Made by a program: the position numbers and the translations under genes
Source: an uncultured Flavobacteriales bacterium
GTDB lineage: Bacteria; Bacteroidota; Bacteroidia; Flavobacteriales_E; Vicingaceae
Reading direction: 5' to 3'
NCBI GenBank assembly: GCA_905479995.1
Contig: CAJQON010000037.1
Location: 1 to 64,000 of the forward strand
DNA: 64,000 nucleotides
Part shown: in pieces, positions 2 to 18,498 of the stretch
Layout: each line of letters begins with the position of its first letter
How positions within the stretch are numbered: the first letter of the stretch is position 1
Notes under the pieces: generated by a model
Seen by the model: the letters and a program-made list of their open reading frames with translations, nothing else
Told to the model about the DNA's origin: nothing
The model's database searches: none

Positions 2-1141
2 GTTTTCTCTGAGAACAAAGAATCCCTTGAAGGTAAAGGTATTATTCGGTCAGTATTTGACCCTTGTTGTGGAACAGGTGGAATGTTAACGACAGGAAAG
101 GAATGGGTAAAAAATAATATTGATAATAAAATATTATTGAATCTTCAAGGTCAGGAATTAAATCCCCACACTTATTCTATTTGTAAATCAGATATGTTAA
201 TTTCTGGTGAAGACCCCGATAACATTCGATTAGGTTCTTCATTATCAAACGACCATTTTGAGGGTAAGAAATTTGATTATATGATAACAAATCCACCTTT
301 CGGTGTTAGTTGGAAATCTGAAAAGGAATTCGTCATACAAGAATCAAAAAACCCCAATGGACGTTTTAGTGTAGGAACACCTAGGTCTTCAGATGGTTCT
401 TTATTATTTCTTCAACATATGATTTCGAAAATGAAAGTAGAGGGGTCTAGGATTGGTGTTGTTTTTAATGGTTCCCCATGTTTTACTGGAGAGAGTGGTA
501 GTGGTGAAAGTGAAATACGTAAATGGATTTTAAAGAATGATTTATTAGAGTGTATTGTTAGATTACCAAATGATTTATTTTTCAACACTCCTATCACAAC
601 GTACATTTGGTTAGTTAATAATAAAAAGAAAGACTTAAGAAAAAATAAAATTCAATTAATAGATGGTTCAAATTTATTCAAATTAAGAAGGAAACCTTTA
701 GGGGATAAACGGAAAGAACTTTTGGATGAACATATAAATGAAATACTTAGTACTTATCTTTCATTCGAACCAAATGATATTAGTAAGATTTATAACAATG
801 ATGAATTTTTATATACGAAATGTACAATTGAACGTCCTTTAATTGAAAATAATGTTAAGGTGAAATTAAAAAATGGAAAACTGAAACCTGACTCAAAATT
901 ACGAGATTCTGAAAATGTTCCTTTTGGAAAATCTATTGAAGATTTTTTTGATACTGAAATTTTACCCCACAGACCTGATTCTTGGATCGACAGTACAAAA
1001 GACTCAATTGGATGTGAAATTAATTTCAATAAATGTTTTTACACGAAACCAGTAGTTTTAAAAGAAAAGGAAATAACAAAACAACTCTTAGAACTTGAGA
1101 AGTTATCTGAAGGAATACTCGTAAACTTATTAAAAGATTAA
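2..1141 (+). CDS. hsdM: Type I restriction-modification methyltransferase subunit HsdM (5' partial)
   Basis: Adenine-N6 DNA methyltransferase subunit of a type I restriction-modification enzyme. The reading frame is open to the window edge, so the N-terminal part lies upstream. Seen directly: the SAM-binding motif I DPCCGTGG (bases 59-82) and the catalytic motif IV NPPF (bases 290-301), in the right order and spacing for the N6-MTase fold. The C-terminal tail is helical and charged, as expected for the region contacting HsdS. hsdS begins one base after the stop codon, and hsdR follows, so this is one operon. The first internal ATG (base 83) lies inside motif I and cannot be the real start. 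Confidence 0.93.
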   Translation, partial: VFSENKESLEGKGIIRSVFDPCCGTGGMLTTGKEWVKNNIDNKILLNLQGQELNPHTYSICKSDMLISGEDPDNIRLGSSLSNDHFEGKKFDYMITNPPFGVSWKSEKEFVIQESKNPNGRFSVGTPRSSDGSLLFLQHMISKMKVEGSRIGVVFNGSPCFTGESGSGESEIRKWILKNDLLECIVRLPNDLFFNTPITTYIWLVNNKKKDLRKNKIQLIDGSNLFKLRRKPLGDKRKELLDEHINEILSTYLSFEPNDISKIYNNDEFLYTKCTIERPLIENNVKVKLKNGKLKPDSKLRDSENVPFGKSIEDFFDTEILPHRPDSWIDSTKDSIGCEINFNKCFYTKPVVLKEKEITKQLLELEKLSEGILVNLLKD

Positions 1142-1142
1142 A

Positions 1143-1763
1143 ATGGTAAAATTAAAAAAATCCAATACTATATGGTTTGACAATGTACCTTCTCATTGGT
1201 CATTGACAAAAAATAAATTCTTTTTGAAAGAGAAAAATGAAGTAGTTGGAGAAAACTCATCGGATTATACATTATTATCATTAACTACAAATGGGGTTAT
1301 TAAAAGAGATATAGATAGTGGTAAAGGTAAATTTCCCAGTTCTTTTGAGGACTATAAAGTTGTTTCAAAGGGAGACTTGATATTTTGTCTATACGATATT
1401 GATGAAACCCCTAGAACTGTCGGTTTTTCGGAATTAGATGGAATGATTTCCGGATCCTATAAAATATTTGAATGTGATGAAAATGTCTTCCCTAAATATA
1501 TCTATTATTATTATTTGAATATTGATAATTTCAAAGGTTTAAAACCATACTACACAGGATTAAGAAATGTAATCCGTCCTGAAACTTTTAAGAGTCTATC
1601 TATTTATTTACCACCCTATAATGAACAAGTTTCTATTGTTGAATCTATTGAGTTAAAACTAAATGAAATAAAAAGACTCAAAGAAATTGAAATTCAGAAA
1701 TTGCAAAAATTGGATGAATTTGTTAAGTCCACAATCAATAATAATGTAACTGGAATTATATAA
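1143..1763 (+). CDS. hsdS: Half-size type I specificity subunit HsdS
   Basis: DNA-recognition subunit of the type I system. At 206 aa it is about half of a usual HsdS (about 400 aa), with one target-recognition domain (residues about 1-155) and one long helix (about 160-200, rich in Glu, Lys and Leu) instead of two of each. The hallmark junction 'SIYLPPYNEQVSIVESIE' precedes the helix. No second half is present: hsdR starts two bases after the stop. By analogy with known truncated S subunits, two copies may dimerise and read a symmetric bipartite site. It could also be a decayed fragment, but the clean operon spacing argues against that. Confidence 0.88.
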   Translation: MVKLKKSNTIWFDNVPSHWSLTKNKFFLKEKNEVVGENSSDYTLLSLTTNGVIKRDIDSGKGKFPSSFEDYKVVSKGDLIFCLYDIDETPRTVGFSELDGMISGSYKIFECDENVFPKYIYYYYLNIDNFKGLKPYYTGLRNVIRPETFKSLSIYLPPYNEQVSIVESIELKLNEIKRLKEIEIQKLQKLDEFVKSTINNNVTGII

Positions 1764-1764
1764 T

Positions 1765-4710
1765 ATGTCTAATCCAAACGAAGAAAGATTTGAGAAACAT
1801 ATTGAACAATCCTTATTGAAATCTGGATTTGTTTCTCGTTTATATACAGAATATAACAAAAACTCTTGTCAAATTCAAGAAGACCTAATTGAGTTCATTA
1901 AATCGACTCAACAAAAAGAATATGACAAACTGTATTCTCAATTCGATAACTCAACAGATAAACAACTTTGTAAAGTAGTTAATGACCAAATCTCTAAAAG
2001 AGGTATTGTTGATGTTCTTCGTAAAGGAGTTAGTACTCGTGGTTGTTCGTTTGAACTGGTTTATTTCAAACCTAAGAGTGGATTGAATCAAGAACATAAA
2101 GAATTATACGGAAAGAATAGATTTGTTGTCCTACGTCAATTAAAATACTCTAATAAAAATGAGAATTCTATTGATATGGGGATATTCTTAAATGGTATAC
2201 CAATTATCACATTAGAATTAAAGAATCAGTTGACTGGACAAACTATTATTGATTCTGAAAAACAATATAAATACGATAGGAATCCACTTGGTGAACCATT
2301 ACTTCAATTCAAAAGATGTTTGGTACATTTTTGTGTAGATAATGACAAGGTTTCGATGACTACTAGGTTAAGTGGAAACAAAACTAGATTCCTACCATAT
2401 AACAAGGGTATTGAAAACCCAATAATCGACAATGATTATAAGACTGAATATCTATGGAATGATATATTAACTCCAGACTCTTTATTAGACATTATTCAAA
2501 ACTTTGTTCTTGTTTCAATTGAGTCTAAGAAAGTATGGAGTGAAAAGTTAAACAAGGTAACCGAAGAGAAAGATGAGGTTTTAATTTTTCCAAGATATCA
2601 CCAACTTGATGTAATAAGAAATGTCAGAGAGAAAGTGAAAGAAGAAGGTGTTGGAGAGAATTACTTAATTCAACATACAACTGGTTCGGGTAAATCTTAT
2701 TCAATTGGTTGGTTATCTCATACACTTACTTCCTTATTTAGAACCCAAGAAGATAAGAAAAGAATGTTTGATACTATTCTTGTTATAACAGATAGAAAGG
2801 TTCTTGATAAACAACTTCAAAAGACATTAATGGATTTACAACAAACGGATGGTGTTGTAAACCCAGTCGATATTAATTCAAAACAATTAAAGGAATTCCT
2901 TGAAAAAGGGAAGGATATTATCATTACTACTATTCAAAAGTTTCCAGTTATATCAGAAACTATCTCACAATTAAAAGGACAGACATTTGGAGTGGTTATA
3001 GACGAGGTTCACTCATCACAGAGTGGAGAAACTTCTAAACACTTAAAAAAGTCTCTCTCAGTTGATGTAATTGAAGATGATGAAGGGAACATTGATTATG
3101 AAGAGATGATTCGTCAAGATATTGAATCGAGGGGGAAACAATCTCATATTTCATTTTTTGGGTTTACTGGAACACCAAAGAACAAGACTCTTGAATTATT
3201 TGGTCGAAAAAATGATAATGGACAATTTGTTCCATTTCATTCTTACTCAATGAAACAATCCATTTTCGAAGGGTTTACTCTTGATGTATTAGAACATTAT
3301 ACCACATATAAAAGATACTTCAAAGTAAAACAAACTGGAGAGGAAGATGTTGAATTACCTGAGGGTAAAGTAATGAGTCAATTAGTTGATTATGTTGATT
3401 CACACGATGAGGTAATTCGTCAGAAGGTTACAATAATATTGAATCAGTTTGTATCTGTTACGTCAAAAAAGATTAATGGACAAGGACGAGGAATGGTTGT
3501 GGTTCGTTCGAGAAAACATTGTGTTTTATTCTTTCAAGAATTAGTTAGACAATTAAAAGAACGAGGATTGAATTACTCTTCATTGGTTGGGTTTAGTGGT
3601 GTTGTTAATCTAAACGGACAAGAATATACAGAGACTCAACTAAACAAAGATAATGGAATGGAGGGTACTGATATTCCAAGTGGATTGAAAGACCCTAGGT
3701 TCAGAATTTTAGTAGTTTCAAATAAGTTTCAAACTGGATTTGATGAACCATTGATTCACACAATGTTCGTAGATAAGAAATTAAGTGGTGTTCAATGTGT
3801 TCAAACTTTATCGAGATTGAATAGAACAAAAAGTGGTAAGACAGATACTTTTGTTCTTGACTTTGTTAATGATACAGAGGATATAGTTACATCGTTTCAA
3901 CCATTCTATACTTCAACTCTCTTAACTGGAGAAACTGAACCTGACAAACTTTATGATTTACAAAATGAAATTGAGTCTTTCAGTCTTTATACAGATGATC
4001 AATTAGATAGGTTTTGTAAAGAGTTTTATAAACAAACTGAAACTGATGAACTTCTTCAACCTATCATTAATGAAGTGGTTAAGAAGTGGAAAGAATTAGA
4101 AAATGAAGACCAACAAAAAGATTTCAAAAGTAAGATTCAATCATTTGTAAGATTGTATTCATACATTTCTCAAATTATGAGTTTCACAGAAGTTCATTGG
4201 GAAAAAATGTACATCTTTTTAAGATACCTCAACAAAAAACTACCAAAAGACCAAACAGAAAGAATTGACATTACTGATTCAGTTGATTTAGGTTCATTGA
4301 GAATTCAAATGATGGGAGAATCGAGATTATCATTGGAAGATAAACAAGGTGAGATAGAACCAATGAGTCCAGAGACTGGAGGTATGTCTATTGAAGAAGG
4401 TCTTGATTTGTTATCTCATATTATTGAAAGAATAAATGAAGTATATGGAATTGAACTTTCAGAGGAAGATAAATTAGATTTGAAAAATGTATCTGAAAGA
4501 ATTGGTAAGAATGAAGAACTAGGACTTGTTATGACGGGGAATAATTCAGAAGATGATAAGAGGGATTTCTTTAATAAGTTATTAAAAGATGAGGTTTCTG
4601 AATATTATGGTGACCGATTAGATTTCTATAAGAAGATAACGAATACCAAAGTGTTTCCAATGATTCTTGAAGGTATGTATAAGGATTATAGTAGAGAGTT
4701 AGGTAAATAA
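1765..4710 (+). CDS. hsdR: Type I restriction endonuclease subunit HsdR
   Basis: ATP-dependent translocase and nuclease subunit, 981 aa, full length for the family. Domains in order: an N-terminal PD-(D/E)xK nuclease with E151-L-K153; helicase motif I HTTGSGKS with Lys310; motif II DEVH at 413-416; motif III FFGFTGTP; and motif VI 'QTLSRLNRTKSG'. The C-terminal helical region probably binds the methyltransferase core. All catalytic motifs look intact, so the enzyme should be active if HsdM is complete. It is the last gene of the operon, starting immediately after hsdS and followed by a hairpin terminator. Confidence 0.95.
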   Translation: MSNPNEERFEKHIEQSLLKSGFVSRLYTEYNKNSCQIQEDLIEFIKSTQQKEYDKLYSQFDNSTDKQLCKVVNDQISKRGIVDVLRKGVSTRGCSFELVYFKPKSGLNQEHKELYGKNRFVVLRQLKYSNKNENSIDMGIFLNGIPIITLELKNQLTGQTIIDSEKQYKYDRNPLGEPLLQFKRCLVHFCVDNDKVSMTTRLSGNKTRFLPYNKGIENPIIDNDYKTEYLWNDILTPDSLLDIIQNFVLVSIESKKVWSEKLNKVTEEKDEVLIFPRYHQLDVIRNVREKVKEEGVGENYLIQHTTGSGKSYSIGWLSHTLTSLFRTQEDKKRMFDTILVITDRKVLDKQLQKTLMDLQQTDGVVNPVDINSKQLKEFLEKGKDIIITTIQKFPVISETISQLKGQTFGVVIDEVHSSQSGETSKHLKKSLSVDVIEDDEGNIDYEEMIRQDIESRGKQSHISFFGFTGTPKNKTLELFGRKNDNGQFVPFHSYSMKQSIFEGFTLDVLEHYTTYKRYFKVKQTGEEDVELPEGKVMSQLVDYVDSHDEVIRQKVTIILNQFVSVTSKKINGQGRGMVVVRSRKHCVLFFQELVRQLKERGLNYSSLVGFSGVVNLNGQEYTETQLNKDNGMEGTDIPSGLKDPRFRILVVSNKFQTGFDEPLIHTMFVDKKLSGVQCVQTLSRLNRTKSGKTDTFVLDFVNDTEDIVTSFQPFYTSTLLTGETEPDKLYDLQNEIESFSLYTDDQLDRFCKEFYKQTETDELLQPIINEVVKKWKELENEDQQKDFKSKIQSFVRLYSYISQIMSFTEVHWEKMYIFLRYLNKKLPKDQTERIDITDSVDLGSLRIQMMGESRLSLEDKQGEIEPMSPETGGMSIEEGLDLLSHIIERINEVYGIELSEEDKLDLKNVSERIGKNEELGLVMTGNNSEDDKRDFFNKLLKDEVSEYYGDRLDFYKKITNTKVFPMILEGMYKDYSRELGK

Positions 4711-4712
4711 AA

Positions 4713-4738
4713 AAAGACCTCTAGAAATAAAGGTCTTT
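4713..4738. terminator. Bidirectional terminator after hsdR
   Basis: AAAGACCT and AGGTCTTT form an 8-bp stem with a 10-nt AT-rich loop between the convergent hsdR and the minus-strand gene at 4743. Runs of A and T flank both sides, so it can serve both strands. Confidence 0.7.
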
Positions 4739-4742
4739 AAGT

Positions 4743-5279
4743 TTAGTTGTTAGAAATAATAAAATTATTATCTAACTGGTTTAGTTGTTTAGTGTGATAC
4801 TTAACAAATGTATTCAAGTCATAAAATTCATTCTCTAAGTGGATGTTGACCTCTATATTATGTTTACTAAATTCTCTTTCAACTAGACATTTTAACACTT
4901 TAGAACTTACCCTTTTATTCATAACAAATGGTTGGTAAAAGATATGTGTGTGATACCTCATTTCATTCATTATAAAATCATCTGATATATTTCTAGGTCT
5001 TCGAGTAAAAAATGTTCTATCATTCAGTAGTTTTTTATTCTTGGTGATGGATGAGTTAATCTCAATCACAGAGACGTATTTTAAGTAGTTCTTAGAGTTG
5101 TAATGTTCTTTATGACTCTTTATGTAGTTAAGTTTTGAAATGTCTCTAAAACACTTTTTTATTATTGATTTGAATTGATTGAAAGATTTTAGATTGTTGT
5201 CAGGGACAATTGTTATGTAATGAACCTCTTTCATTTTTAGTTTATTCATTTTATGTATATACAAATTTTCTGTATCCAT
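4743..5279 (-). CDS. Hypothetical protein, possible HUH/Rep-like fold
   Basis: A 178-aa protein I do not recognise by family. The order of predicted elements resembles rolling-circle Rep (HUH) endonucleases: a strand EVHYITIVP near the N-terminus, a helix, a strand YVSVIEI, then YHTHIFY (an H-x-H pair), a helix, another strand, and finally FVKYHTKQ, which could stand for the Tyr/Lys motif. The middle residue of the H-x-H pair is Thr rather than hydrophobic, so the match is imperfect. There are later possible starts at Met11 and Met16; Met16 would begin just before the first strand. The protein is Lys/Asn-rich and encoded on the minus strand, downstream of an HTH cassette, in the accessory block. 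Confidence 0.6.
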   Translation of the reverse strand: MDTENLYIHKMNKLKMKEVHYITIVPDNNLKSFNQFKSIIKKCFRDISKLNYIKSHKEHYNSKNYLKYVSVIEINSSITKNKKLLNDRTFFTRRPRNISDDFIMNEMRYHTHIFYQPFVMNKRVSSKVLKCLVEREFSKHNIEVNIHLENEFYDLNTFVKYHTKQLNQLDNNFIISNN

Positions 5280-5315
5280 ATTATTAATCTTCTTTTATGG
5301 TATAATTCAACCAAT

Positions 5316-5335
5316 ACCCTCCAGAGTAGGAGGGT
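5316..5335. repeat. Perfect 7-bp inverted repeat upstream of the 178-aa gene
   Basis: ACCCTCC-N6-GGAGGGT, the only GC-rich spot in this AT-rich stretch. It lies 37-57 bases upstream of the start of the minus-strand 178-aa gene. No T-run follows on either strand, so an intrinsic terminator is unlikely; an operator, RNA leader hairpin or Rep nick-site hairpin are possible. Confidence 0.6.
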
Positions 5336-5409
5336 CTATCAGTTGTCTATATAAAAAATCTAAGTAGTGGTCTTTTTATGATTTATTCGAAGAGTTCACT
5401 CTCTTTTTA

Positions 5410-5427
5410 ACCAGTTCCGGAATTGGT
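5410..5427. repeat. 18-bp near-palindrome after the coiled-coil ORF
   Basis: ACCAGTTCC followed directly by GGAATTGGT: two 9-bp arms with one G/T mismatch. It starts right after the stop codon of the 50-aa minus-strand ORF. It may be a protein-binding site or a transcript 3' hairpin; there is no minus-strand T-run behind it. Confidence 0.5.
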
Positions 5428-5428
5428 C

Positions 5429-5581
5429 TTATTTTAGTCTTTCTATTTTTACTTTTAATTCATCAATCTTTACTTTAAGTCTTAATATTTCCCGTTTCTT
5501 TGTGTCTTTCTCTATTTTAATCTTACCATTATTCAATTCAATTTTATTCTGTAAATCCCTTATTTTATCGTAATCAACCAT
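5429..5581 (-). CDS. Small coiled-coil peptide, 50 aa
   Basis: A 50-codon frame below usual length cut-offs. It starts with ATG at 5581-5579, inside the end of the upstream HTH gene (ATGGTTGA overlap, stop at 5576-5574), the arrangement of translational coupling. The product is almost entirely charged and hydrophobic in a heptad-like pattern (IRDLQNKIEL..., LRLKVKIDELKVKIERLK), so a short coiled coil is likely. There are no cysteines or membrane segments. It may be a multimerisation partner of the HTH protein. Function unknown. Confidence 0.55.
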   Translation of the reverse strand: MVDYDKIRDLQNKIELNNGKIKIEKDTKKREILRLKVKIDELKVKIERLK

Positions 5582-5801
5582 TAAATTCTTTCTCTATTTT
5601 CTCAATCAATATTCTTTCCATTAAACTAAATAGTGTTGGTTGAGAATACAGATATTGATTCTTGTATATCAAATCTTTAGAAAAGTTGTTCCTTTTTATT
5701 TCCCTTTGAACTTTTGACCGAGAAACACCAAGTATTCTTTTCATTGTTTCAATATCGTAGAATCGTTTATTTTCTTCGTTTACGAAACTTAGTACTCTCA
5801 T
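5574..5801 (-). CDS. Small helix-turn-helix protein
   Basis: A 75-aa protein whose residues 15-38 (YDIETMKRILGVSRSKVQRE...) read as a helix-turn-helix of the MerR/excisionase type, followed by a likely wing (IYKNQYLYSQ) and a C-terminal helix. It resembles the small DNA-binding proteins of phages and plasmids. Its first 35 bases overlap the 3' end of the acidic-protein gene and its last bases overlap the 50-aa ORF, so the three genes are probably translated as a coupled unit. It is a candidate regulator of the inverted repeat at 6096-6117 upstream of the cassette. Confidence 0.65.
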   Translation of the reverse strand: MRVLSFVNEENKRFYDIETMKRILGVSRSKVQREIKRNNFSKDLIYKNQYLYSQPTLFSLMERILIEKIEKEFNG

Positions 5802-6075
5802 ATTTCTTCTTTATTTTTTTATACTCATTTAATAGTTCGTCAATCATTTCTTCTTCATCACCTTCTGATTGGGTTTCTTCTTCATCCTCTTCTTGACTCT
5901 GAACCTCATCATCAATTTCATTTAAGAGTTTAATTTTTCTGTTCTTTCTTAATTCGGGTTCCTCAGACTCATCATCTGGAATTAGAATTTCATTTTCGGG
6001 TAGGTCTTGACTTTCTTTAGAATATTTTTCAAGTATAAACTTGATAAAGTCTGTCTGTAAGTGTTTTCTTTTCAT
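5767..6075 (-). CDS. Acidic hypothetical protein
   Basis: A 102-aa protein of low complexity. A basic N-terminus (MKRKHLQTDFIKFILEKY) is followed by a strongly acidic stretch (residues about 24-80, with runs such as EEDEEETQSEGDEEE) and a basic tail ending KFRKRRK. No known domain was recognised. Acidic proteins of this type can be DNA mimics or chaperone-like partners, but nothing here proves that. It is the first gene of an overlapping three-gene cassette, and its 3' end overlaps the HTH gene by 35 bases. Confidence 0.6.
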   Translation of the reverse strand: MKRKHLQTDFIKFILEKYSKESQDLPENEILIPDDESEEPELRKNRKIKLLNEIDDEVQSQEEDEEETQSEGDEEEMIDELLNEYKKIKKKYESTKFRKRRK

Positions 6076-6095
6076 TCATAATATTTAAGTTTTAG

Positions 6096-6117
6096 TGAAT
6101 TGAACTATGTCAATTCA
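6096..6117. promoter_or_regulatory. Perfect 8-bp inverted repeat, putative operator
   Basis: TGAATTGA-N6-TCAATTCA, 21 bases upstream of the first gene (6075) of the HTH cassette. Size, symmetry and position fit a dimer-binding operator for the HTH protein, i.e. autoregulation. Inferred only. Confidence 0.45.
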
Positions 6118-6153
6118 TAAGGTATATATTGAATGGATAAATAATTGTTGAGG

Positions 6154-6237
6154 TAATGTGGATTCTTTATTGAGATGTATATACAAGTATGGACGAATAT
6201 TACAGATTGTATCTAGTAAATTCTCTCCTCCACATTA
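6154..6237. repeat. Spaced inverted repeat TAATGTGGA next to the comM junction
   Basis: TAATGTGGA at 6154-6162 recurs inverted (TCCACATTA) at 6229-6237, within the non-homologous tail of the truncated YifB gene. Such spaced repeats could be transposase-binding sites at an element end; two copies of 9 bp are weak evidence. Confidence 0.3.
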
Positions 6238-7088
6238 AATACTGTAACATCAGAAATGGTATGATGTGGAGCACGAAAAGGCCGAACATTAATTAAGGAT
6301 GCATCCTTAATTAGCTTTCCACCAACCGAATGAATTTTAGTGGTTTCTAATGCCTCCAACAACGACAATGGTGGAAGAATGGTCGGCAATCGTTTTGCTA
6401 ACATTGTTTTTCCAGCTCCTGGCGGCCCAATTAATATTACATTATGGCCACCAGCAGCAGCAATTTCTAATGCTCGTTTAATATTTTCTTGCCCTTTTAC
6501 ATCTTCAAAATCAAAATCAACTTTATTGAGGTTTTCATAAAAGGTTTTTCGAGTATCTAATTCTTCTCTCTTCAGAGATGATTCTCCATCAAAAAAATCA
6601 ATAACTTCTTTAATGTTGTTGGCACCATAAACCTCCAACCCATCAACTATAGCAGCTTCTAATGCATTTTCCTTTGGCAACACAAACCCTTTAAACCCTT
6701 CTTTTCTTGCCTGAATGGCAATGGGCAAAGCACCTTTTATAGGCTGTAAGCTTCCGTCTAACGACAATTCTCCCATAATAAGATACTCGCCTACTTTTTC
6801 TTCACTCATTTGACCAGAGGCTGCTAAAATGCCTGAGGCAATGGTTAAATCATAAGCCGAGCCTTCTTTTCGAATGTCAGCAGGAGCCATATTTACCACC
6901 ACTTTTTTACCAGGCATTTTGTATCCTACATTTTTTAAGGCCGCTTCTATCCGTTGCTGACTTTCTTTTACTGCATTATCGGGTAATCCAACCATAAAAA
7001 ATTTCATACCTCTATCTACATTAACCTCTACGGTAATAGTAATAGCATCAACGCCCAAAACGGCACTTCCAAAAGTTTTGACTAACAT
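6213..7088 (-). pseudogene. YifB/ComM-type Mg-chelatase-like AAA ATPase, 3'-truncated
   Basis: The first 281 residues are a normal YifB/ComM protein: the N-terminal ChlI-type domain ('VGLPDNAVKESQQRIEAAL'), then an AAA domain with Walker A GPPGAGKT (Gly221-Thr228) and the family signature FRAPHHTISDV ending at Val281. The family continues for about 230 more residues (Walker B, sensors, zinc-binding C-terminus). Here homology stops at about base 6246 and ten unrelated residues lead to a stop. ComM is a branch-migration helicase used in natural transformation; this product would lack half of its ATPase. The break coincides with the edge of the accessory block, which suggests disruption by insertion. 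The remaining 3' half may lie left of the window. Confidence 0.85.
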
Positions 7089-9272: not shown

Positions 9273-10931
<1,659 letters not shown>

Positions 10932-11207
10932 TTAAACAATTGCGAAAATATCTGATTCACGCATAATTAAATAATCTTTTCCTTCTACAGATACTTCTGT
11001 TCCAGCATACTTCCCATAAAGTACCGTATCTCCAGTTTTAACTGTCATAGGCTCATCAGGTTTTCCATTTCCAACAGCTACAATTTTGCCTCTTTGAGGT
11101 TTTTCTTTTGCAGTATCTGGAATAATAATTCCTCCAGCAGTTTTTTCTTCTGCAGCTTGAGCTTCTACAATTACTCTATCTGCAAGTGGTTTAATTTTAA
11201 TAGCCAT
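10932..11207 (-). CDS. groS: 10 kDa co-chaperonin GroES
   Basis: 91 aa from the ATG at 11207, giving the standard N-terminus [15 protein letters not shown]. The open frame extends 16 codons further upstream, but those residues do not belong to the family. It carries the mobile loop [17 protein letters not shown] that docks on GroEL, and the conserved end [13 protein letters not shown]. It forms the heptameric lid of the chaperonin. First gene of groES-groEL. Confidence 0.98.
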
Positions 11208-11249
11208 ATCTTTTATTTTAATGTTATCAATTTTTCTCTGAATGAATAT

Positions 11250-11267
11250 AGTCACATTCTATACCAA
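11250..11267 (-). promoter_or_regulatory. Weak sigma54-like element upstream of groES
   Basis: On the minus strand TTGGTATAGAATGTGACT matches the -24 GG and spacing of a sigma54 promoter but has GA instead of GC at -12. A clear TAnnTTTG box is absent in this leader. Speculative. Confidence 0.2.
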
Positions 11268-11315
11268 TGAAGAAATGACAGGATTCTCAGCCATTTTTTC
11301 AGTTTATTCCATAAA

Positions 11316-11351
11316 AAAAGTGTCAGCCCATTGGTATAAACTGACACTTTT
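11316..11351 (-). terminator. Terminator after secG
   Basis: AAAAGTGTCAG / CTGACACTTTT, an 11-bp stem around a 14-nt loop, 18 bases past the secG stop, with a run of T on the minus strand. It separates secG from groES. Confidence 0.85.
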
Positions 11352-11369
11352 ACATATTTCTTAATTCTT

Positions 11370-11723
11370 TTATTCTGCAGGAGCTGAAGCCGGTCCAGTT
11401 GTTGGAACAGTTACTCCATTATTAACTGGTGCAGCTAATGGTGCATTATCAACTTGTTCTTGCATTTTAGTTCCTCTTCCTTCACCTTCTACTTCAACAG
11501 TTGAAGATGTTGTAAAAGCTGAGGATGCAATACTTAATATTACCAAAGCAATACCCATTGACCAAGTCGCTTTTTCTAAGAAGTCAGTTGTTTTTCTAAC
11601 TCCCATCACTTGGTTGTTAGTAGAAAACGCAGAATCTAATCCTCCTTTAGGATTTTGAACAAGTACGATTAGTATTAACAATACACAAACGACAATTACT
11701 AATATGGTGATTAATGCAAACAT
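11370..11723 (-). CDS. secG: Protein-export membrane protein SecG
   Basis: 117 aa. Two transmembrane helices (residues about 1-22 and 53-73) flank the conserved cytoplasmic loop VQNPKGGLDSAF; the C-terminal Pro/Ala/Glu-rich tail is typical of Bacteroidota SecG. It assists SecYE translocation. Its ATG overlaps the stop of the upstream TPR gene (TAATG), so it is the last gene of the miaB-to-secG run. Confidence 0.95.
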   Translation of the reverse strand: MFALITILVIVVCVLLILIVLVQNPKGGLDSAFSTNNQVMGVRKTTDFLEKATWSMGIALVILSIASSAFTTSSTVEVEGEGRGTKMQEQVDNAPLAAPVNNGVTVPTTGPASAPAE

Positions 11724-12619
11724 TATTTTATTTTTTTGTTTAAAATTTTAATTTGGGATGCAAAATAACTTCTTTTTTTCGGATTATTCAAACTTAATTT
11801 CTCGTAAGTCCGAATTGCTTCTTCAAAAGCGCCTTGTTCAACCAAAATAAGAGCGAGGGTTTCACTAACCACTCCCTTATTACTTACACTCTTTTTCGCC
11901 ATGCTTCCTGGTGAATAAAAGGGTTCTTTATTGGGGTCAATCTTAGGGTCTTCCTGAATAAATTGATCTATTAAATCGGCATTGCTCTTTTTTGTTGATT
12001 TGGCAATAACAACTGGATCAATGTCTTCATCACTAAAATGGCTTAACCAATCTGTAAAACTATGTTCTGTTTTTTCATCAAACAAATCAACTTCTACAGC
12101 GGTCTCTTCAACTTGTTTTGTTGCTTGTTCTTCAATGTCACCTGGCAAGTCCTTATCTACTTCTAGCTCTATACTATAACTAATTGCTTGTGTTATGTAT
12201 TCTTTTTCCAACACATCAAGCTCTTCCACTTTTATTTTGGGAGTTTCTTCTTTTAACTCTTTAGGCTTTTCTTCTTCAACCAATAATTCAGGCTGAACCT
12301 CAACAGGCTTTGCTTCTTTCGTTTTCTCTTGCGCAACAATTTTCTCTTCAACCACTGGCTTAATTACTACTTCTCCTGCTGCTTCCTCTATAGGCTGTAA
12401 TAATTCAAAAAGTTGAGTTCTATCAGAACAATATGCTGCGGCTTTTTTTAATTGTTCATCAAACAAAATGCTATCGCTACTATTTAAATTAATAGCATAC
12501 ATCAACTGTCCGGTTTGACAATAAGGAAATTCATTTACAATAGGCAACAAGTCTTGCCCATTAACTTGAGCTAATAGTTCGGGCTGGGTAAGATATTTTA
12601 CAAAATCTTTTACTTGCAT
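11723..12619 (-). CDS. TPR-containing hypothetical protein
   Basis: 298 aa. The N-terminal 90 residues form a helical domain (MQVKDFVKYLTQPELLAQ), followed by a long acidic Glu/Lys/Val-rich linker (about 100-190). The C-terminus has one tetratricopeptide-like helix pair (SETLALILVEQGAFEEAIRTYEKL). Precise function unknown; genes of this kind lie between lptE and secG in many Bacteroidota. It starts two bases after lptE ends and overlaps secG, consistent with one envelope-related operon. Confidence 0.75.
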   Translation of the reverse strand: MQVKDFVKYLTQPELLAQVNGQDLLPIVNEFPYCQTGQLMYAINLNSSDSILFDEQLKKAAAYCSDRTQLFELLQPIEEAAGEVVIKPVVEEKIVAQEKTKEAKPVEVQPELLVEEEKPKELKEETPKIKVEELDVLEKEYITQAISYSIELEVDKDLPGDIEEQATKQVEETAVEVDLFDEKTEHSFTDWLSHFSDEDIDPVVIAKSTKKSNADLIDQFIQEDPKIDPNKEPFYSPGSMAKKSVSNKGVVSETLALILVEQGAFEEAIRTYEKLSLNNPKKRSYFASQIKILNKKIK

Positions 12620-12620
12620 A

Positions 12621-13127
12621 TTACCAATTACTTACCGATTTATTAAAAATATCTTGGGTCAACTGATCATTAATATCTTCAATCAATTCATCCTCAATAC
12701 TCGCTATGTTCTGAGAACTCTCATAATCTGCAAAACGCGAAAAACGCGTCTCAAAATCTTGCGTATGGTCTTTGGTATTTACAAAAGTTACTTTTACTGC
12801 AATCGTTAATCGATTTAATGCCGCCTTATCATTCCCTTGAATGGCAACGGACGAAATTCTATAATTTGTTATTGCTCCTTCAAAACGCAAATCTCCATCT
12901 CTGGTCACTAAATTTAAATTGGTTTGTGAGATAAAAACATCTTTTAAGGCTTCAGTAAACGTTTGACTTAAATTGGCATTTGCCAATGGTGCATAAACTT
13001 GAAATGTTTTTACAGAAACTGTTTTTACATCTTCGGCAATAGAAGCTCCGGTAAATGAATAATTTACTTTACACGAATAAATAATCGTGAGCAACAGAAT
13101 TAATATGGCAGCTAACTTTAGTTTCAA
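12621..13127 (-). CDS. lptE: LPS-assembly lipoprotein LptE-like
   Basis: 168 aa with a lipoprotein signal ending at IIYSC (Cys19), then YSFTGASIAEDVKTVSVKTF, the typical start of the Bacteroidota LptE family. It plugs LptD in the outer membrane for lipopolysaccharide export; LptD itself is not in this window. The start is TTG at 13127 overlapping the TGA stop of the sigma54 activator gene (ATTGA); no ATG is available, and the TTG gives the correct signal peptide. Confidence 0.85.
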   Translation of the reverse strand: MKLKLAAILILLLTIIYSCKVNYSFTGASIAEDVKTVSVKTFQVYAPLANANLSQTFTEALKDVFISQTNLNLVTRDGDLRFEGAITNYRISSVAIQGNDKAALNRLTIAVKVTFVNTKDHTQDFETRFSRFADYESSQNIASIEDELIEDINDQLTQDIFNKSVSNW

Positions 13128-14362
13128 TTGTCTATTTCGTATTCTTTAATTTTTCTATAAAGTGTTCGTTCTGAAATTCCCAATTCATCTGCGGCACTTT
13201 TACGTTTTCCATTGTATTTGGCCAAAGCTTTAATAATCATTTCCTTCTCCTTATCGGCTAACGACAGCGATTCCTCAACCAATTCTTCATGTTGTACTGA
13301 GGATTCTTCTTTGGGTAATATCTGCGGCTTATAGACTTGATTGTCTTCTTGTCGATCTACTTCTTGAGGCTTATTGTACAAGTTTTTTATGCTTTGAACC
13401 AATGCAGGATTATTTTCTAAGTCTCCTAATTCATTGCCTTGATTTTTCATTAAACCAAAAACCAAATTCTTCAATTCAGTAACATCCCCTTTTAAATCAA
13501 ACAAAACTTTATACAAAATATCTCTTTCCGATAAATCCGAATTAGCATCACCTTTAAAAACTGTAGGTAAATTCTGGTCGATTGTATTCGGCAAATATTT
13601 TAATAAAATTTCTTCGCTAATGTCTCTCGAGCTTTCAATAACCGAAACCTGTTCAGCAACATTTTTTAGTTGACGAATGTTTCCATTCCAACGGTAATTT
13701 TCAAGTAAAACAATAGCTTCTGGAGATAATTTAACGCTCGGCATTCTGTATTTACTCGCAAAGTCTGAAGCAAATTTTCTAAACAATAAATGGATGTCTT
13801 CTTTTCGATCTCTTAAGGCTGGTAAAACAATAGGAACTGTATTTAAACGATAAAAAAGGTCTTCTCTAAACTTGCCTTTTTTGATTGCTTGACCAATGTT
13901 AACATTGGTAGCAGCAACCACTCTAATGTCGGTTTTTAGCACTTTAGAAGAACCTACTTTAATGAATTCTCCTGTTTCTAAAACCCTCAATAATCGTACT
14001 TGGGTTTGTACAGGTAATTCTGCTACTTCATCTAAAAAGATGGTTCCACCATCTGCTACTTCAAAATATCCTTTTCTAGAATCGTGTGCACCTGTAAAAG
14101 CGCCCTTTTCATGTCCAAACAGCTCCGAGTCTATTGTTCCTTCAGGAATTGCGCCACAATTTACTGCTATGTATTTGTTGTGTTTTCTGGCACTTAATTG
14201 GTGGATAATTTGAGGCATTATTTCTTTACCAACACCACTCTCTCCTGTTATTAAAACAGACAAATCGGTTAAAGCAACTTGTGTCGCCACATCTATTGCT
14301 CTGTCCAATATTGGAGAAGCTCCAATAATTCCAAATCGTTGTTTAATTTGCTGTGTATTCAT
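13124..14362 (-). CDS. Sigma54-dependent transcriptional activator
   Basis: 412 aa. The AAA+ domain starts almost at the N-terminus: Walker A GESGVGKE (40-47), the sigma54-contacting loop GAFTGA (87-92), and Walker B GGTIFLDEVAEL. The C-terminus is a Fis-type helix-turn-helix (GKRKSAADELGISERTLYRKIK). There is no receiver or PAS domain, so activity is not controlled by a linked sensor in the usual way. It sits between miaB and lptE; the targets are unknown, possibly envelope-stress or chaperone genes nearby. Confidence 0.93.
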   Translation of the reverse strand: MNTQQIKQRFGIIGASPILDRAIDVATQVALTDLSVLITGESGVGKEIMPQIIHQLSARKHNKYIAVNCGAIPEGTIDSELFGHEKGAFTGAHDSRKGYFEVADGGTIFLDEVAELPVQTQVRLLRVLETGEFIKVGSSKVLKTDIRVVAATNVNIGQAIKKGKFREDLFYRLNTVPIVLPALRDRKEDIHLLFRKFASDFASKYRMPSVKLSPEAIVLLENYRWNGNIRQLKNVAEQVSVIESSRDISEEILLKYLPNTIDQNLPTVFKGDANSDLSERDILYKVLFDLKGDVTELKNLVFGLMKNQGNELGDLENNPALVQSIKNLYNKPQEVDRQEDNQVYKPQILPKEESSVQHEELVEESLSLADKEKEMIIKALAKYNGKRKSAADELGISERTLYRKIKEYEIDN

Positions 14363-14373
14363 TCTCTTTTTAA

Positions 14374-15816
14374 TTATTCAACTGCCGTTCCCAACAGTGT
14401 TCCTCCAGTACAATCGTGAACATGAACCTTAACATAGTCGCCAACTTTGTAGTCTTTTCTTGGAAAAACAACCACCGTATTTTGAGAGGTTCTTCCTGCC
14501 AACTCATCATCAGATCGCTTTGAGTTTTTTTCTACCAACACTTCATAAACGGAGCCAACATAGTTTTTATTGATCTCAAAAGAATGGTCTCTTTGTAAAG
14601 CAACAATTTCCGAAAGTCTTCTACTCTTATCTTCCTCACTCACATCATCATCTAACTTACGTTGTGCCTGCGTATTTGGTCGCTCAGAGTATTTAAACAT
14701 ATACGAAAAATCATACCGAACATAATCCATTAACGATAACGTTTCTTTGTGCTCCTCCTCTGTTTCAGAACAAAACCCAGCAATTATATCTGCCGAAATT
14801 GAACAGTCTGGCATAATCTCTTTTATCTTATCAATTCGCTCCATGTACCATTCTCTGGTATAACCTCTATTCATTACCTCTAAAACCCTAGAGTTTCCAC
14901 TTTGAAAAGGCAAATGAATATACTTGCAAATGTTGTCGTACTTAGCCATTGTATGTAAAAACTCATCCGTAATGTCTTTAGGATGTGAAGTTGAAAAACG
15001 AACCCTCAACAATGGACTAATGAGTGCAACTTGTTCCATTAGTTGAGCAAAATTCATACTTTCTGCTTTTTCCTCATCGCTTAATGTATCAAAATTCTTT
15101 TTCAAGCCCTCCTTTCCATACCACAAATAAGAATCTACATTTTGTCCCAAAAGAGTTACTTCCTTATAGCCTCTGTTAAACAAATCTTTTGCTTCTTCTA
15201 AAATACTTTCTGGATTTCTACTTCGTTCTCTTCCTCGTGTAAAAGGTACAACGCAGAAAGTACACATATTATCACACCCTCTGGTAATTGAAATGAATGC
15301 CGAAACACCATTACTCAATAAACGCACAGGACTAATATCGGCATAAGTTTCTTCTTTAGATAGAATTACGTTTACTGCTTTCTTTCCTTCATCAACTTGT
15401 TGTACCAAGTTAGGTAAATCTCTATAAGCATCAGGGCCAACTACAATGTCTACCAATTTTTCTTCTTCCAAAAATTTCGACTTTAATCGCTCTGCCATAC
15501 AACCCAAAACACCAATCATCATTTCTGGCTTCTTCTTTTTTGCATGCTGAAACGACTTCAGTCTATTTCTTACCGTTTGTTCTGCCTTTTCTCTAATAGA
15601 ACAGGTATTTACCAAAACCAAATCAGCCTCTTCTAGATTTTTAGTAGTGTTAAATCCATCTTTAGTTAAAATAGATGCAACTATTTCACTGTCAGAAAAA
15701 TTCATTTGACAACCGTAACTCTCAATGTAAACTTTTCTAGCTCCTTCTGTGTTCGAATCTAACATGGTTGTTTGTCCTTGCTTTGATTCGTCTATTTCTT
15801 TCTTAATCTCTTCCAT
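14374..15816 (-). CDS. miaB: tRNA-2-methylthio-N6-dimethylallyladenosine synthase
   Basis: 480 aa, slightly long because of an N-terminal extension of about 28 residues. Radical SAM methylthiotransferase that adds a methylthio group to i6A37 of tRNAs. Domains: N-terminal UPF0004 with Cys36 (YGCQMN), the Cys of NTCSIREKA and the Cys of LGCMAERL for the auxiliary cluster; the radical SAM motif CDNMCTFC; and a C-terminal TRAM domain ([12 protein letters not shown]...). First gene of the minus-strand run toward secG, divergent from topA. Confidence 0.97.
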
Positions 15817-15834
15817 TATAAATTAATTGGATTG

Positions 15835-15866
15835 CGAAGTTACTCAATTTTAAAACGAATGACAAA
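15835..15866 (-). promoter_or_regulatory. Promoter of the miaB operon
   Basis: On the minus strand TTTG, 20 bases, then TAACTTCG: a good fit to the Bacteroidota TTTG / TAnnTTTG pattern, just upstream of the miaB start at 15816. Confidence 0.55.
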
Positions 15867-15943
15867 ATGACATAAAAGTTAAATTTGCATATTTAAAAAA
15901 AGTATATTATTTTATAATATAGGAGCCCTGAATCCATATCAAA

Positions 15944-15976
15944 TTTGGAAAAGCAAAAATTTATTTCATTTCTTTG
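15944..15976 (+). promoter_or_regulatory. Promoter of topA
   Basis: TTTG at 15944-15947, 21 bases, then TTTCTTTG at 15969-15976, one base off the TAnnTTTG consensus, 29 bases before the topA ATG. Confidence 0.5.
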
Positions 15977-16005
15977 CAAAAAAAATCACTCTAACATATT
16001 AAAGT

Positions 16006-18498
16006 ATGGCAAAGAATCTAGTAATAGTTGAGTCACCCGCAAAAGCAAAAACAATAGAGAAAATTCTTGGAAAAGATTTTACAGTTAAATCAAGCTTTGG
16101 CCATATTAGAGACTTGCCTGGCAAGAACATTTCTATTGACATAGAAAATGACTTTGCCCCTGACTATGTTATTCCTGATGATAAAAAGAAAATTGTTGCT
16201 GAATTAAAAAAGCTTTCTAAAACTGCAGAAACGGTTTGGTTGGCATCGGATGAGGATCGCGAGGGAGAAGCCATTTCTTGGCATTTATTAGAAGCATTAA
16301 AATTAAAAGAAGAAAAAACCAAACGGATCGTTTTTCATGAGATTACAAAAACAGCCATTACTAAGGCAGTAGAAAATCCAAGAAAAATTAATAAAGACTT
16401 AGTAGACGCCCAACAAGCCAGAAGAGTTTTGGATAGATTGGTGGGTTACGAACTTTCTCCGGTATTATGGAAAAAAATAAAACCATCACTTTCTGCAGGA
16501 CGAGTTCAGTCGGTTGCTGTTCGTTTAATTGTAGAGCGTGAAAAAGAAATTGCTGACTTTAACTACGAGTCTTCTTACAGAGTTGTAGCTAATTTTGTTG
16601 TTGGTGGTAGTACTATTATGAAATCAGAACTTCCGCAACGATTTAAAACCAAAGCAGAAGCAGAAAAATTTCTAGAAAGTTGTAAAGGTGCAAAATTTAC
16701 AATTGACAATCTAGAAACGAAACCAGCAAAAAAGTCACCTGCAGCACCATTTACTACTTCCACATTACAACAAGAGGCAAGTAGAAAGTTAGGTTTCTCA
16801 GTATCTCAAACCATGACCGTTGCACAAAGACTTTACGAAGCTGGTAAGATTACTTACATGAGAACAGACTCTGTAAACCTATCAAACGATGCAATAGGTG
16901 CAGCTAAAAAAGAAATTACAAAATCTTATGGTGAAGAATATTCTCAAATAAGAAAATACAATACAAAATCTAAAGGAGCACAAGAGGCACACGAGGCCAT
17001 TCGACCTTCTTACATGAACGAACATACTTTTACTGGTGATCCAGGACAAGCACGTTTGTATGATTTAATTTGGAAAAGAACTGTAGCTTCTCAAATGAGT
17101 GATGCTCAATTAGAAAAGACAACTGCAAAAATTAAAATATCTACTGCCAATGAAGTTTTTGTGGCAAAAGGAGAAGTGCTAATTTTTGAAGGGTTCTTAA
17201 AAGTATACTTAGAATCTACTGACGATGAACACAATGACGATAAAGAAGGTATTTTACCTCCTTTAACCGTTGGTGAAGAATTACAATTACAAGAAATTAT
17301 TGCTACTGAACGATTTACACATCACCCTGCCCGATATACTGAAGCTAGCTTAGTAAAGAAACTAGAAGCATTAGGAATAGGAAGACCGTCTACTTACGCA
17401 CCAACAATTTCTACTGTTCAGAAAAGAGGTTATGTAGTAAAAGAAGATAGAGATGGAGCTCAAAGAGATTTTACAACGCTAACATTGAAAGATGACACCA
17501 TTGGTGATGTTACCGCAAAAGAAAATTTTGGTTTTGAAAAAAGAAAAATGTTCCCATCCGATATTGGAATTGTGGTTACAGACTTTTTGGTAGAAAATTT
17601 TGGAAAAGTACTCGACTATAGCTTTACGGCAAAGGTAGAAGAGCAATTTGATGAAATTGCTGAAGGCCAAAAACAATGGAGTAAAATGATTGCAGAATTC
17701 TACAATCCTTTTCATACACAAATTGAAGACACCCTAGAAAATGCCGAAAGAGCAAGTGGAGAAAGAGCTTTAGGAATAGATCCTGAATCTGGAAGACCAT
17801 TAATTGTAAGAATTGGAAAATTCGGACCAATGGCACAAATAGGAAAAACCGAAGATGAAGGCGGAGCCAAGTTTGCAAGTTTACTAACTGGACAGACCAT
17901 TGGAAGAATCTCTTTAGAAGAAGCCCTCGAGTTATTTAAATTCCCAAAAACATTAGGTGAATTTGAAGGTCATGATGTAATTGCTTCTCAAGGACGATTT
18001 GGACCTTATGTGAAATTTGACACAATGTTCGTCTCTATTCCTAGAGATGAAGATTTAGGTTCGGTTGACTTAACAAGAGCAATAGAACTAATAAAAGAAA
18101 AACAACAAGCTGATGCTCCAATAGATGAATACGAAAGCCTTCCTGTTCAAAAAGGAGTTGGACGTTTTGGGCCTTTCATCAAATGGAATGGAATGTTTAT
18201 TAATGTAAACAAAAAATACAATTTTGATAATTTATCGCATGAAGATATTGTTCAATTAATTGAAGATAAAAAGCAAAAAGAAATTGACAAATTCATTCAT
18301 AACTGGGAAGACAAAGGTATTTCGGTACAAAAAGCACGTTGGGGAAGATTCAATATTATAAAAGGTAAAATTAAAATTGAATTACCTAAAACAACTGATG
18401 CTCCTGCTCTTACTTTAGAACAAGTTGAAAAAATGATCGCTGAAAAAGCTCCAGCAAAAAAAGCAAAGAAAAAGAAAGCCGTAAAGAAAAAGAAGTAG
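16006..18498 (+). CDS. topA: DNA topoisomerase I
   Basis: 830 aa type IA topoisomerase that relaxes negative supercoils. N-terminal Toprim domain (LVIVESPAKAKTIEKIL, then ASDEDREGEAISWH), cleavage domain with catalytic Tyr284 in YMRTDS, and the IGRPSTYA motif. The C-terminal third holds Topo_C-type repeats (SGRPLIVRIGKFGPM, GRFGPYVKF, GRFGPFIKW) instead of zinc fingers, and a Lys-rich tail (AKKAKKKKAVKKKK) that probably binds DNA. Monocistronic start, with the arginase-fold gene 38 bases downstream. Confidence 0.98.
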   Translation: MAKNLVIVESPAKAKTIEKILGKDFTVKSSFGHIRDLPGKNISIDIENDFAPDYVIPDDKKKIVAELKKLSKTAETVWLASDEDREGEAISWHLLEALKLKEEKTKRIVFHEITKTAITKAVENPRKINKDLVDAQQARRVLDRLVGYELSPVLWKKIKPSLSAGRVQSVAVRLIVEREKEIADFNYESSYRVVANFVVGGSTIMKSELPQRFKTKAEAEKFLESCKGAKFTIDNLETKPAKKSPAAPFTTSTLQQEASRKLGFSVSQTMTVAQRLYEAGKITYMRTDSVNLSNDAIGAAKKEITKSYGEEYSQIRKYNTKSKGAQEAHEAIRPSYMNEHTFTGDPGQARLYDLIWKRTVASQMSDAQLEKTTAKIKISTANEVFVAKGEVLIFEGFLKVYLESTDDEHNDDKEGILPPLTVGEELQLQEIIATERFTHHPARYTEASLVKKLEALGIGRPSTYAPTISTVQKRGYVVKEDRDGAQRDFTTLTLKDDTIGDVTAKENFGFEKRKMFPSDIGIVVTDFLVENFGKVLDYSFTAKVEEQFDEIAEGQKQWSKMIAEFYNPFHTQIEDTLENAERASGERALGIDPESGRPLIVRIGKFGPMAQIGKTEDEGGAKFASLLTGQTIGRISLEEALELFKFPKTLGEFEGHDVIASQGRFGPYVKFDTMFVSIPRDEDLGSVDLTRAIELIKEKQQADAPIDEYESLPVQKGVGRFGPFIKWNGMFINVNKKYNFDNLSHEDIVQLIEDKKQKEIDKFIHNWEDKGISVQKARWGRFNIIKGKIKIELPKTTDAPALTLEQVEKMIAEKAPAKKAKKKKAVKKKK

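Follow-up and report, generated by a model that had tools for sequence, protein, structure and literature searches.

A putative four-gene nicking operon as a candidate constant core of a family of Bacteroidota integrative elements

What are three small, overlapping genes doing next to a restriction-modification (RM) system and behind a perfect inverted repeat? This question is raised by the window, the whole stretch of 64,000 nucleotides that we analysed (contig CAJQON010000037.1, positions 1 to 64,000, of assembly GCA_905479995.1, from an uncultured Flavobacteriales bacterium). An initial annotation, made from the sequence alone, had described a cassette of genes for an acidic protein, a helix-turn-helix (HTH) protein and a 50-aa peptide, and had suggested that it could control the RM system or maintain an element. 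Missing from that description are a co-oriented gene for an HUH-type nuclease-like protein, a split comM gene and a recombinase on another contig.

The cassette and the island that carries it

The cassette consists of three minus-strand genes whose coordinates and overlaps are as the initial annotation gave them (Table 1). The acidic and HTH genes share 35 bases (5767-5801), and the HTH and 50-aa genes share 8 bases (5574-5581, ATGGTTGA), with the start of the 50-aa gene inside the HTH stop. The acidic protein had been called DNA-mimic-like; its acidity holds across loci (pI 4.5-5.1 in 15 loci), but the mimic label is weak, as these proteins contain 16-25% lysine plus arginine. The window protein is acidic in its middle and basic at both ends.

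Beyond the cassette lies the 5' half of comM, and the 3' half is found on contig C5, where a large serine recombinase (Resolvase 1.7e-31, Recombinase 3e-18) stands beside it and is cut by the contig end. A zinc-ribbon domain from the missing end of this recombinase was sought in the same genome and was not found. As comM is split between the window and positions 4306-5934 of the C5 sequence (L009), contigs C5 and C37 adjoin each other, separated by a gap in the assembly. When both junctions were joined by eye, an intact comM was restored around HTISDVALV, and the element side became a long palindromic attP centred on GA; attachment sites of serine integrases are palindromic around a central dinucleotide. 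Among 12 other genomes of the same genus, 10 contain a strong comM match in an open frame of 512-524 aa, and the remaining two gave no comM match (a genome that is 72% complete) and a weak one (E 5.9e-4). As comM is split with both junctions present, and is intact in same-genus genomes, we conclude that the left end of the window is an integrated island. The cassette is at the att end of this island and reads inwards, and the type I RM genes run in the opposite direction.

Table 1. Features of the window and of the contig that carries the other half of comM
Feature	Position	Strand	Description
Type I RM cargo	83-4710	plus	hsdM (cut by contig edge), hsdS, hsdR
HUH-like gene	4743-5279	minus	178 aa; fourth gene, 149 bases after the 50-aa gene
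HUH motifs (residues of the window protein)			E73, motif I; H110-T-H112, motif II; Y161-x-x-K164, motif III
Stem-loop	5308-5345	minus	between 50-aa and HUH genes; 90-base fold z -3.65
50-aa gene	5429-5581	minus	basic peptide, pI 9.8; coiled coil judged by eye
HTH gene	5574-5801	minus	75 aa; predicted MerR-like winged helix
Acidic gene	5767-6075	minus	102 aa; pI 4.8
Acidic protein, conserved stretches			N-terminal HLQTDFIKFILEKYS, C-terminal LLNEYKKIKKKYE; acidic middle variable
Dyad	6096-6117		TGAATTGA-CATAGT-TCAATTCA; 8-base arms, 6-base spacer; 20 bases from the acidic ATG
ATATATA block	6123-6130	minus	beside the dyad
ATAAAGAATCCAC block	6158-6170	minus	contains AATCC
comM 5' half	6213-7088	minus	291-aa frame ending in element-derived codons
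Island/comM junction	6219-6260		att half-site, read by eye; GA of the comM strand at 6250-6251
comM 3' half	4306 to about 5010 (contig C5, L009)

Recurrence of the gene set on islands with different integrases, targets and cargo

By its own terms, the initial annotation would have been refuted if the three genes (hereafter, the triad) never co-occurred elsewhere or if the 50-aa frame were not conserved. We found the genes together in 17 loci: the window, four loci from a search of genomes of the class and 12 new ones from a search of genome contigs (the 16 besides the window being L039-L042, L045, L047 and L049-L058). The HTH protein matched nine of 395 class genomes at E of 0.01 or below, five of them strongly, its own genome included (E of 2e-11 or below). 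An alignment search of the genome contigs gave 148 candidate stretches, of which 16 were confirmed, four of these being already known. Further draws from the phylum (2 of 395 genomes) and from one family (3 of 64) returned only loci within the 17. As so few loci were found across these genome searches, the set is rare. Record titles of the contig-search matches name Chitinophagaceae, Chitinophaga, Mucilaginibacter, Flavobacterium and Flavobacteriaceae, among others; the carrier of L055 is Flavobacterium sasangense DSM 21067.

In a profile search of all open reading frames (ORFs), the order and strand of the acidic, HTH and 50-aa genes were constant across loci as far as contig edges allow. The acidic gene is present in 16 of the 17 loci, the exception being L057, whose contig starts just before the HTH gene, and the 50-aa gene is likewise present in 16, the exception being L054, whose contig ends 26 bases past the HTH gene; in L058 the HTH frame is broken. 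The overlap between the acidic and HTH genes measures 29-47 bases in 13 of 14 loci and 14 bases in L042 (L050, L057 and L058 are left out of these counts). The tight coupling read from the window thus belongs to a module that recurs, and the 50-aa frame is conserved, with 15 of 51 columns invariant in five loci. The 50-aa proteins are basic (pI 9.8-10.2 in the five measured), as are 14 of 16 HTH proteins (pI 7.9-9.7), the remaining two having pI values of 6.3 and 5.4.

A programmed frameshift from the HTH into the 50-aa gene was also considered, since their relative frame is identical in 14 of 14 loci, and is unnecessary. The relative frame of the acidic and HTH genes is identical in 13 of 13 loci, and a constant frame arises because the genes overlap in most loci, which fixes it. 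In L040 and L042 the HTH and 50-aa genes do not overlap and are 10 and 7 bases apart.

The HUH gene is complete in nine of the 17 loci, and in all nine it follows the 50-aa gene. It is cut by the contig end in three more (L042, L049 and L052, the last recognised by its N-terminus only), decayed in one (L040) and untestable in one (L054, whose contig is cut before the HUH position). It was not found in the triad-bearing loci L045, L050 and L058 with a first profile run over all ORFs and a better profile run near the triad; as the gene was not found in three of 17 triad loci, the triad may act without the HUH protein. The first profile also missed the HUH genes of L053, L056 and L057, which were recognised by position and motifs and then aligned. 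Distances are correlated among the four genes (Mantel r 0.50-0.91, with at most 3 of 2000 permutations reaching the observed value), and this measure takes host relatedness and horizontal transfer together. Such correlations would be expected if the four genes travel together, and are inflated by close relatives and host phylogeny. In particular, L052, L053, L056 and L057 are closely related (the HTH proteins of L052 and L053 are identical), which inflates both our counts and the Mantel values.

The sites occupied by the gene set differ. In five of the 17 loci comM is split or truncated (window, L039, L041, L050 and L058), and in L039 a tyrosine integrase has used another place in comM, with a 10-base repeat. 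The acidic gene lies about 200-265 bases from a tRNA gene in six loci (Ala in L040; Arg in L042, L047 and L049; Phe in L053 and L055) and at a like distance from a tmRNA gene in L051; these targets are assigned by nearness only, except in L055, where 14 bases of the tRNA-Phe end are repeated directly, at 9485 and 17358, and bound an island of about 7.9 kb (about 9485-17371). In L052 more than 7 kb and another integrase separate the tRNA-Phe gene from the module; L054 and L056 are located upstream of guaA, and L045 and L057, which begin at a contig edge, are assigned no target.

The integrases differ as well, the main enzyme being a large serine integrase in the window (L009) and L058 and a tyrosine integrase in L039 and L055; in these four loci an integrase and att sites are found together in a chromosome. 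A tyrosine integrase about 1 kb from the triad in L045 is a candidate for the same island, and no recombinase was seen in the L050 island. Small serine resolvases occur in L041, L055, L057 and L058; L039 and L047 each carry a small tyrosine recombinase. The cargo comprises type I RM genes in the window and L050 (in L050 only HsdM being checked with Pfam), a C5 methyltransferase in L039, N6/N4 methyltransferases in L047 and L058 and a D12 methyltransferase in L045; among the ORFs of the L055 island, delimited by the direct repeat at the tRNA gene, we saw no methyltransferase by eye. A constant gene set combined with changing integrases, targets and cargo argues for a core function other than integration or restriction.

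Several observations on individual islands may be recorded here. Between tRNA-Phe and the acidic gene of L052 (2385-9730) lies an integrase-like 430-aa ORF of an apparent further, stacked island, an arrangement that suggests tandem accretion at the same site. The small tyrosine recombinases of L039 (2593-3183) and L047 (10379-10942) are very similar on islands that are otherwise unlike. About 80 comM codons are absent between the halves that flank the recombinase-less island of L050 (7780-7840 and 16640-16720). Two Mucilaginibacter records share with the window the comM site at the HTISD codons (L058, 5370-5480 and 17150-17320; L041, 15180-15360); compared with the attP arms of the window, those of L058 look unrelated and the arm of L041 looks similar. 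A 330-aa protein of L058 (13611-14600) without a Pfam hit resembles family A DNA polymerases by eye.

Predicted proteins and DNA signals of the operon

The structural model of the 75-aa HTH protein (pLDDT 85.7) contains a helix-turn-helix, a wing hairpin and a following helix, as predicted for a MerR-like winged helix. Foldseek matched it with probability 1.00 to chains of RacA, MtaN and pSK1 Par (best E 0.0062). The best structural matches were the DNA-binding domain of pSK1 Par (Z 8.5, 1.1 Å over 53 residues) and RacA (Z 8.4, 2.3 Å over 60 residues), followed by translation factor IF2 (Z 7.9) and MerR regulators (Z up to 7.3). MerR-type proteins act as dimers on inverted repeats, and binding of this type by the predicted fold fits the dyad upstream of the acidic gene.

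The HUH proteins are highly divergent, complete members being 18-39% identical to the window protein. Nevertheless, the residues E73, H110, H112, Y161 and K164 are kept in all nine complete proteins, as are a motif II of the form HTHI or HFHL in a hydrophobic context and a motif III YxxKQ downstream of it. The accessible part of PMC5714925 gives the motif order I-II-III for plasmid Reps and III-II-I for Mob relaxases. The tyrosine follows HxH in nine of nine proteins, which is not the canonical order of Mob relaxases (MOBF/Q/P/V). The model of the window protein (mean pLDDT 74.6) runs strand, helix, strand, strand with HxH, helix, strand and helix with the tyrosine. Its top VIA-align matches were origin-binding domains of AAV Rep (Z 7.2, 3.3 Å, 113 residues), tied with unrelated ferredoxin-like folds; Foldseek matches in the PDB were weak, with none below E 0.066. 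Against viral models one match, unnamed, fell below 0.001, and among the 50 listed nine matches are named, six of them replication proteins. The L055 and L056 proteins matched PF23343 (REP_ORF2-G2P) at 20.2 and 18.3 bits, below the curated cut-off of 27.8, and this family was not among the Pfam matches of the window protein. Two HUH members weakly match a replication-initiation PHROG, and no RAYT, relaxase or Rep_1/Rep_2 model was among the Pfam matches. That such proteins are missing from a fold list is given no weight.

Used as a single sequence, the 178-aa protein found nothing useful in plasmids, genome contigs or viral contigs, and only three records in phages (best E 0.1); in 395 phylum genomes its matches in five other genomes had E values between 7.6e-4 and 0.01, and stops interrupted four of these five. 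Likewise, the L055 HUH protein gave nothing useful in plasmids and phages. Plasmids, phages and viral contigs, where a Rep-type module might be expected, thus held no convincing relatives of the proteins tested. The HTH protein had no match in phages and 107 records in plasmids, with E 0.3 among the matches listed and mostly annotated as an unrelated gene; nothing useful came from the HTH and acidic alignments in viral contigs, the 50-aa protein in phages or the L055 HTH protein in plasmids. Searches of the PDB by sequence gave nothing convincing, those of Pfam, PHROGs and NCBIfam gave weak matches only for the triad proteins, the HTH protein included, and PADLOC had no match for the four window proteins or for the HUH proteins of L055 and L047.

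Upstream of the acidic gene, the 8-base arms of the inverted repeat are perfect as first reported, but lie 20 rather than 21 bases from the ATG; this dyad is the likely operator of the operon. The neighbouring ATATATA block, possibly part of a promoter, is exact in 14 of 15 aligned loci and has one change in L040. The AATCC of the block beyond it is kept in 13 of 15 and absent in L041 and L050; this block (ATAAAnAATCC in many loci) lies about 80-105 bases upstream of the acidic ATG. The palindrome has counterparts elsewhere: between the ATATATA block and the ATG many loci contain a repeat whose arms vary (TGAATTGA, TGAACC, CCGAAT, TCCAACC and others). Summed over the 15 loci, the best inverted-repeat scores give 109.5, against 80.0 (sd 4.5) in shuffled sequences, and none of 200 shuffles reached the former value. 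A score of at least 7 was reached in 11 of 15 loci and in 18 of 120 control upstream regions (sampled out of 155). Among these 11, the best repeat of L053 is located elsewhere. Outside the 11, L042 has a repeat in place with a score of 6; a strong repeat upstream of the acidic gene is absent in L039, L051 and L058.

A stem-loop precedes the HUH gene in the window, and folds with z of -3.3 or below occur there in 7 of 11 loci and in 18 of the 120 controls, which themselves fold better than shuffles (mean z -1.1); no significant fold was present in the other four (L039, L041, L042 and L053). The stem-loop is a candidate nick or origin site, leader hairpin or terminator, and the G-T pairs present in some arms would be more in keeping with RNA than with DNA. 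Both the dyad and the stem-loop recur with different sequences in many loci, not in all.

A proposed replication or mobilisation core

On balance we favour the reading that the cassette opens a four-gene operon (encoding the acidic, winged-helix, 50-aa and HUH proteins, in this order), which would be the constant core of a family of small Bacteroidota integrative elements and would serve their replication or mobilisation. As the HUH protein has its motifs in the order of Reps, nicking for rolling-circle replication or mobilisation is the most likely core activity. We propose that the integrase would excise the island as a circle and that the HUH protein would then nick a single strand and start rolling-circle replication, mobilisation by a helper or both; the probable nick site would be the stem-loop that directly precedes the HUH gene. 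A dimer of the winged-helix protein would bind the dyad at the start of the operon and repress it, giving autoregulation, so that the nicking enzyme would be made only upon excision or entry. The simplest view of the 50-aa and acidic proteins is that both are partners of the winged helix, in roles that we infer: the basic peptide may be its dimerisation arm, and the acidic protein may act in release or as a relaxosome factor. The RM genes would be cargo. The presence of resolvases on several islands is in keeping with a replicating circle, whose dimers must be resolved, and the initial suggestion of element maintenance comes near this reading.

In rolling-circle plasmids of the pMV158 type (copG-repB), a control operon combines a small repressor with an HUH Rep. 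The operon described here resembles this arrangement in having a small DNA-binding protein encoded upstream of a Rep-order HUH protein, a dyad at its start and a stem-loop near the rep-like gene, and differs from it in lying on integrated islands, in two extra small proteins, in the MerR-like head and in the lack of a Rep_1/Rep_2 Pfam match. As far as the accessible parts of PMC6499999 and PMC11389934 describe them, MOBT elements use Rep-type relaxases of the Rep_trans kind with acidic metal ligands, and integrative mobilizable elements share with ours an integrase, a nicking enzyme related to replication initiators and a small size. Compared with MOBT as described there, ours is an HUH rather than a Rep_trans protein, and the transfer origin is represented by the candidate stem-loop only. 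Among the ORFs read in the islands, no mating-pair genes were seen.

Other explanations were weighed against the same evidence. The winged helix, assisted by the two small proteins, could be a recombination directionality factor (Xis), as suggested by a weak HTH match to the excisionase/regulator family phrog_66 (E 0.0037), by mycobacteriophage Pukovnik Xis in the fold list and by the position of the gene set at the att end. Directionality factors are integrase-specific, however, and the set occurs with large serine integrases in window/L009 and L058 and with tyrosine integrases in L039 and L055; L045 has a separate, excisionase-like 75-aa ORF (by eye) adjoining its tyrosine integrase, and the HUH gene would be left unexplained; this reading is live but rather unlikely. 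Equally live but rather unlikely is the reading that the winged helix and the 50-aa peptide form a split tether of the RacA/pSK1 Par type for the excised circle, with the dyad as centromere. The two proteins carry MerR-like heads on coiled coils and are the best matches of the HTH model, but MerR regulators score nearly as well, there is a single dyad rather than an array, and integrated islands need no partition unless excised. The likeness to pSK1 Par and RacA extends to the predicted fold of the 75-aa protein and to a DNA-binding head next to a coiled coil, with the difference that head and presumed coil are encoded here by separate, mostly overlapping genes.

An anti-defence, defence or toxin-antitoxin cassette, with an acidic DNA mimic and its regulator, would agree with the small genes, the pairing of an acidic with mostly basic proteins and the location on islands, yet is improbable given that the four window proteins had no PADLOC match, that the set has its own recurring upstream signals and that the acidic protein ends basic. 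Similarly improbable is a domesticated REP-associated or other small transposase regulated by the triad, with the islands as mere hosts. A Foldseek match to the REP-associated tyrosine transposase 4er8 (rank 12, E 0.19) points in this direction, whereas no Y1 transposase model was among the Pfam matches, the HTH partner is single-copy in its own genome and a complete HUH gene follows the 50-aa gene in all nine loci. Control of the neighbouring RM system, as first proposed, finds support in the type I genes that adjoin the module in the window and in the contigs of L039, L050, L047, L058 and L045, which also carry methyltransferase genes; it is nonetheless highly improbable, as the RM types are unrelated with no constant linkage to one system, their orientation to the module varies (opposite in the window and L050, the same in L039 and L047), and no methyltransferase was seen by eye among the ORFs of the L055 island, which carries the module too.

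If the four genes do form a nicking operon, the islands may represent a new class of Bacteroidota integrative elements, an interpretation that we offer tentatively. Its constant backbone would be this operon, with exchangeable integrase, target and cargo; overlapping genes would encode the two parts of a MerR/RacA-type regulator, its DNA-binding head and, as a separate 50-aa peptide, its coiled coil, and the HUH nickase would be loaded by a complex that an acidic partner releases or assembles. No Pfam, PHROGs or NCBIfam model matched the four-gene set above threshold, and the gene set is not described in the accessible parts of the literature searched (including PMC5714925, PMC6499999, PMC11389934, PMC3146451 and PMC7508600), a search that covered few subscription journals and no preprints. 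Taken singly, the parts belong to known kinds; their combination and their role as a portable core appear to be new.

AbaR islands move by a transposition system, in contrast to the serine and tyrosine integrases of the elements here, and we know of no such four-gene core in AbaR. The two share a target, as AbaR islands interrupt comM of Acinetobacter according to the accessible part of PMC7508600. comM has been targeted repeatedly, both by a tyrosine integrase and by serine integrases whose attP arms look unrelated, and one may speculate that disrupting a transformation gene benefits the islands.

The gene set also illustrates that genes below annotation size can rank among the best conserved parts of an element. 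As one carrier, F. sasangense DSM 21067, is a named culture-collection strain, the proposed replication or mobilisation core is directly testable. Many small islands carry an integrase and defence cargo without a recognisable means of spreading. If a nicking operon is indeed common to islands with unrelated integrases, it would provide a marker for finding and classifying them, a candidate origin and a mechanism for their replication or transfer.
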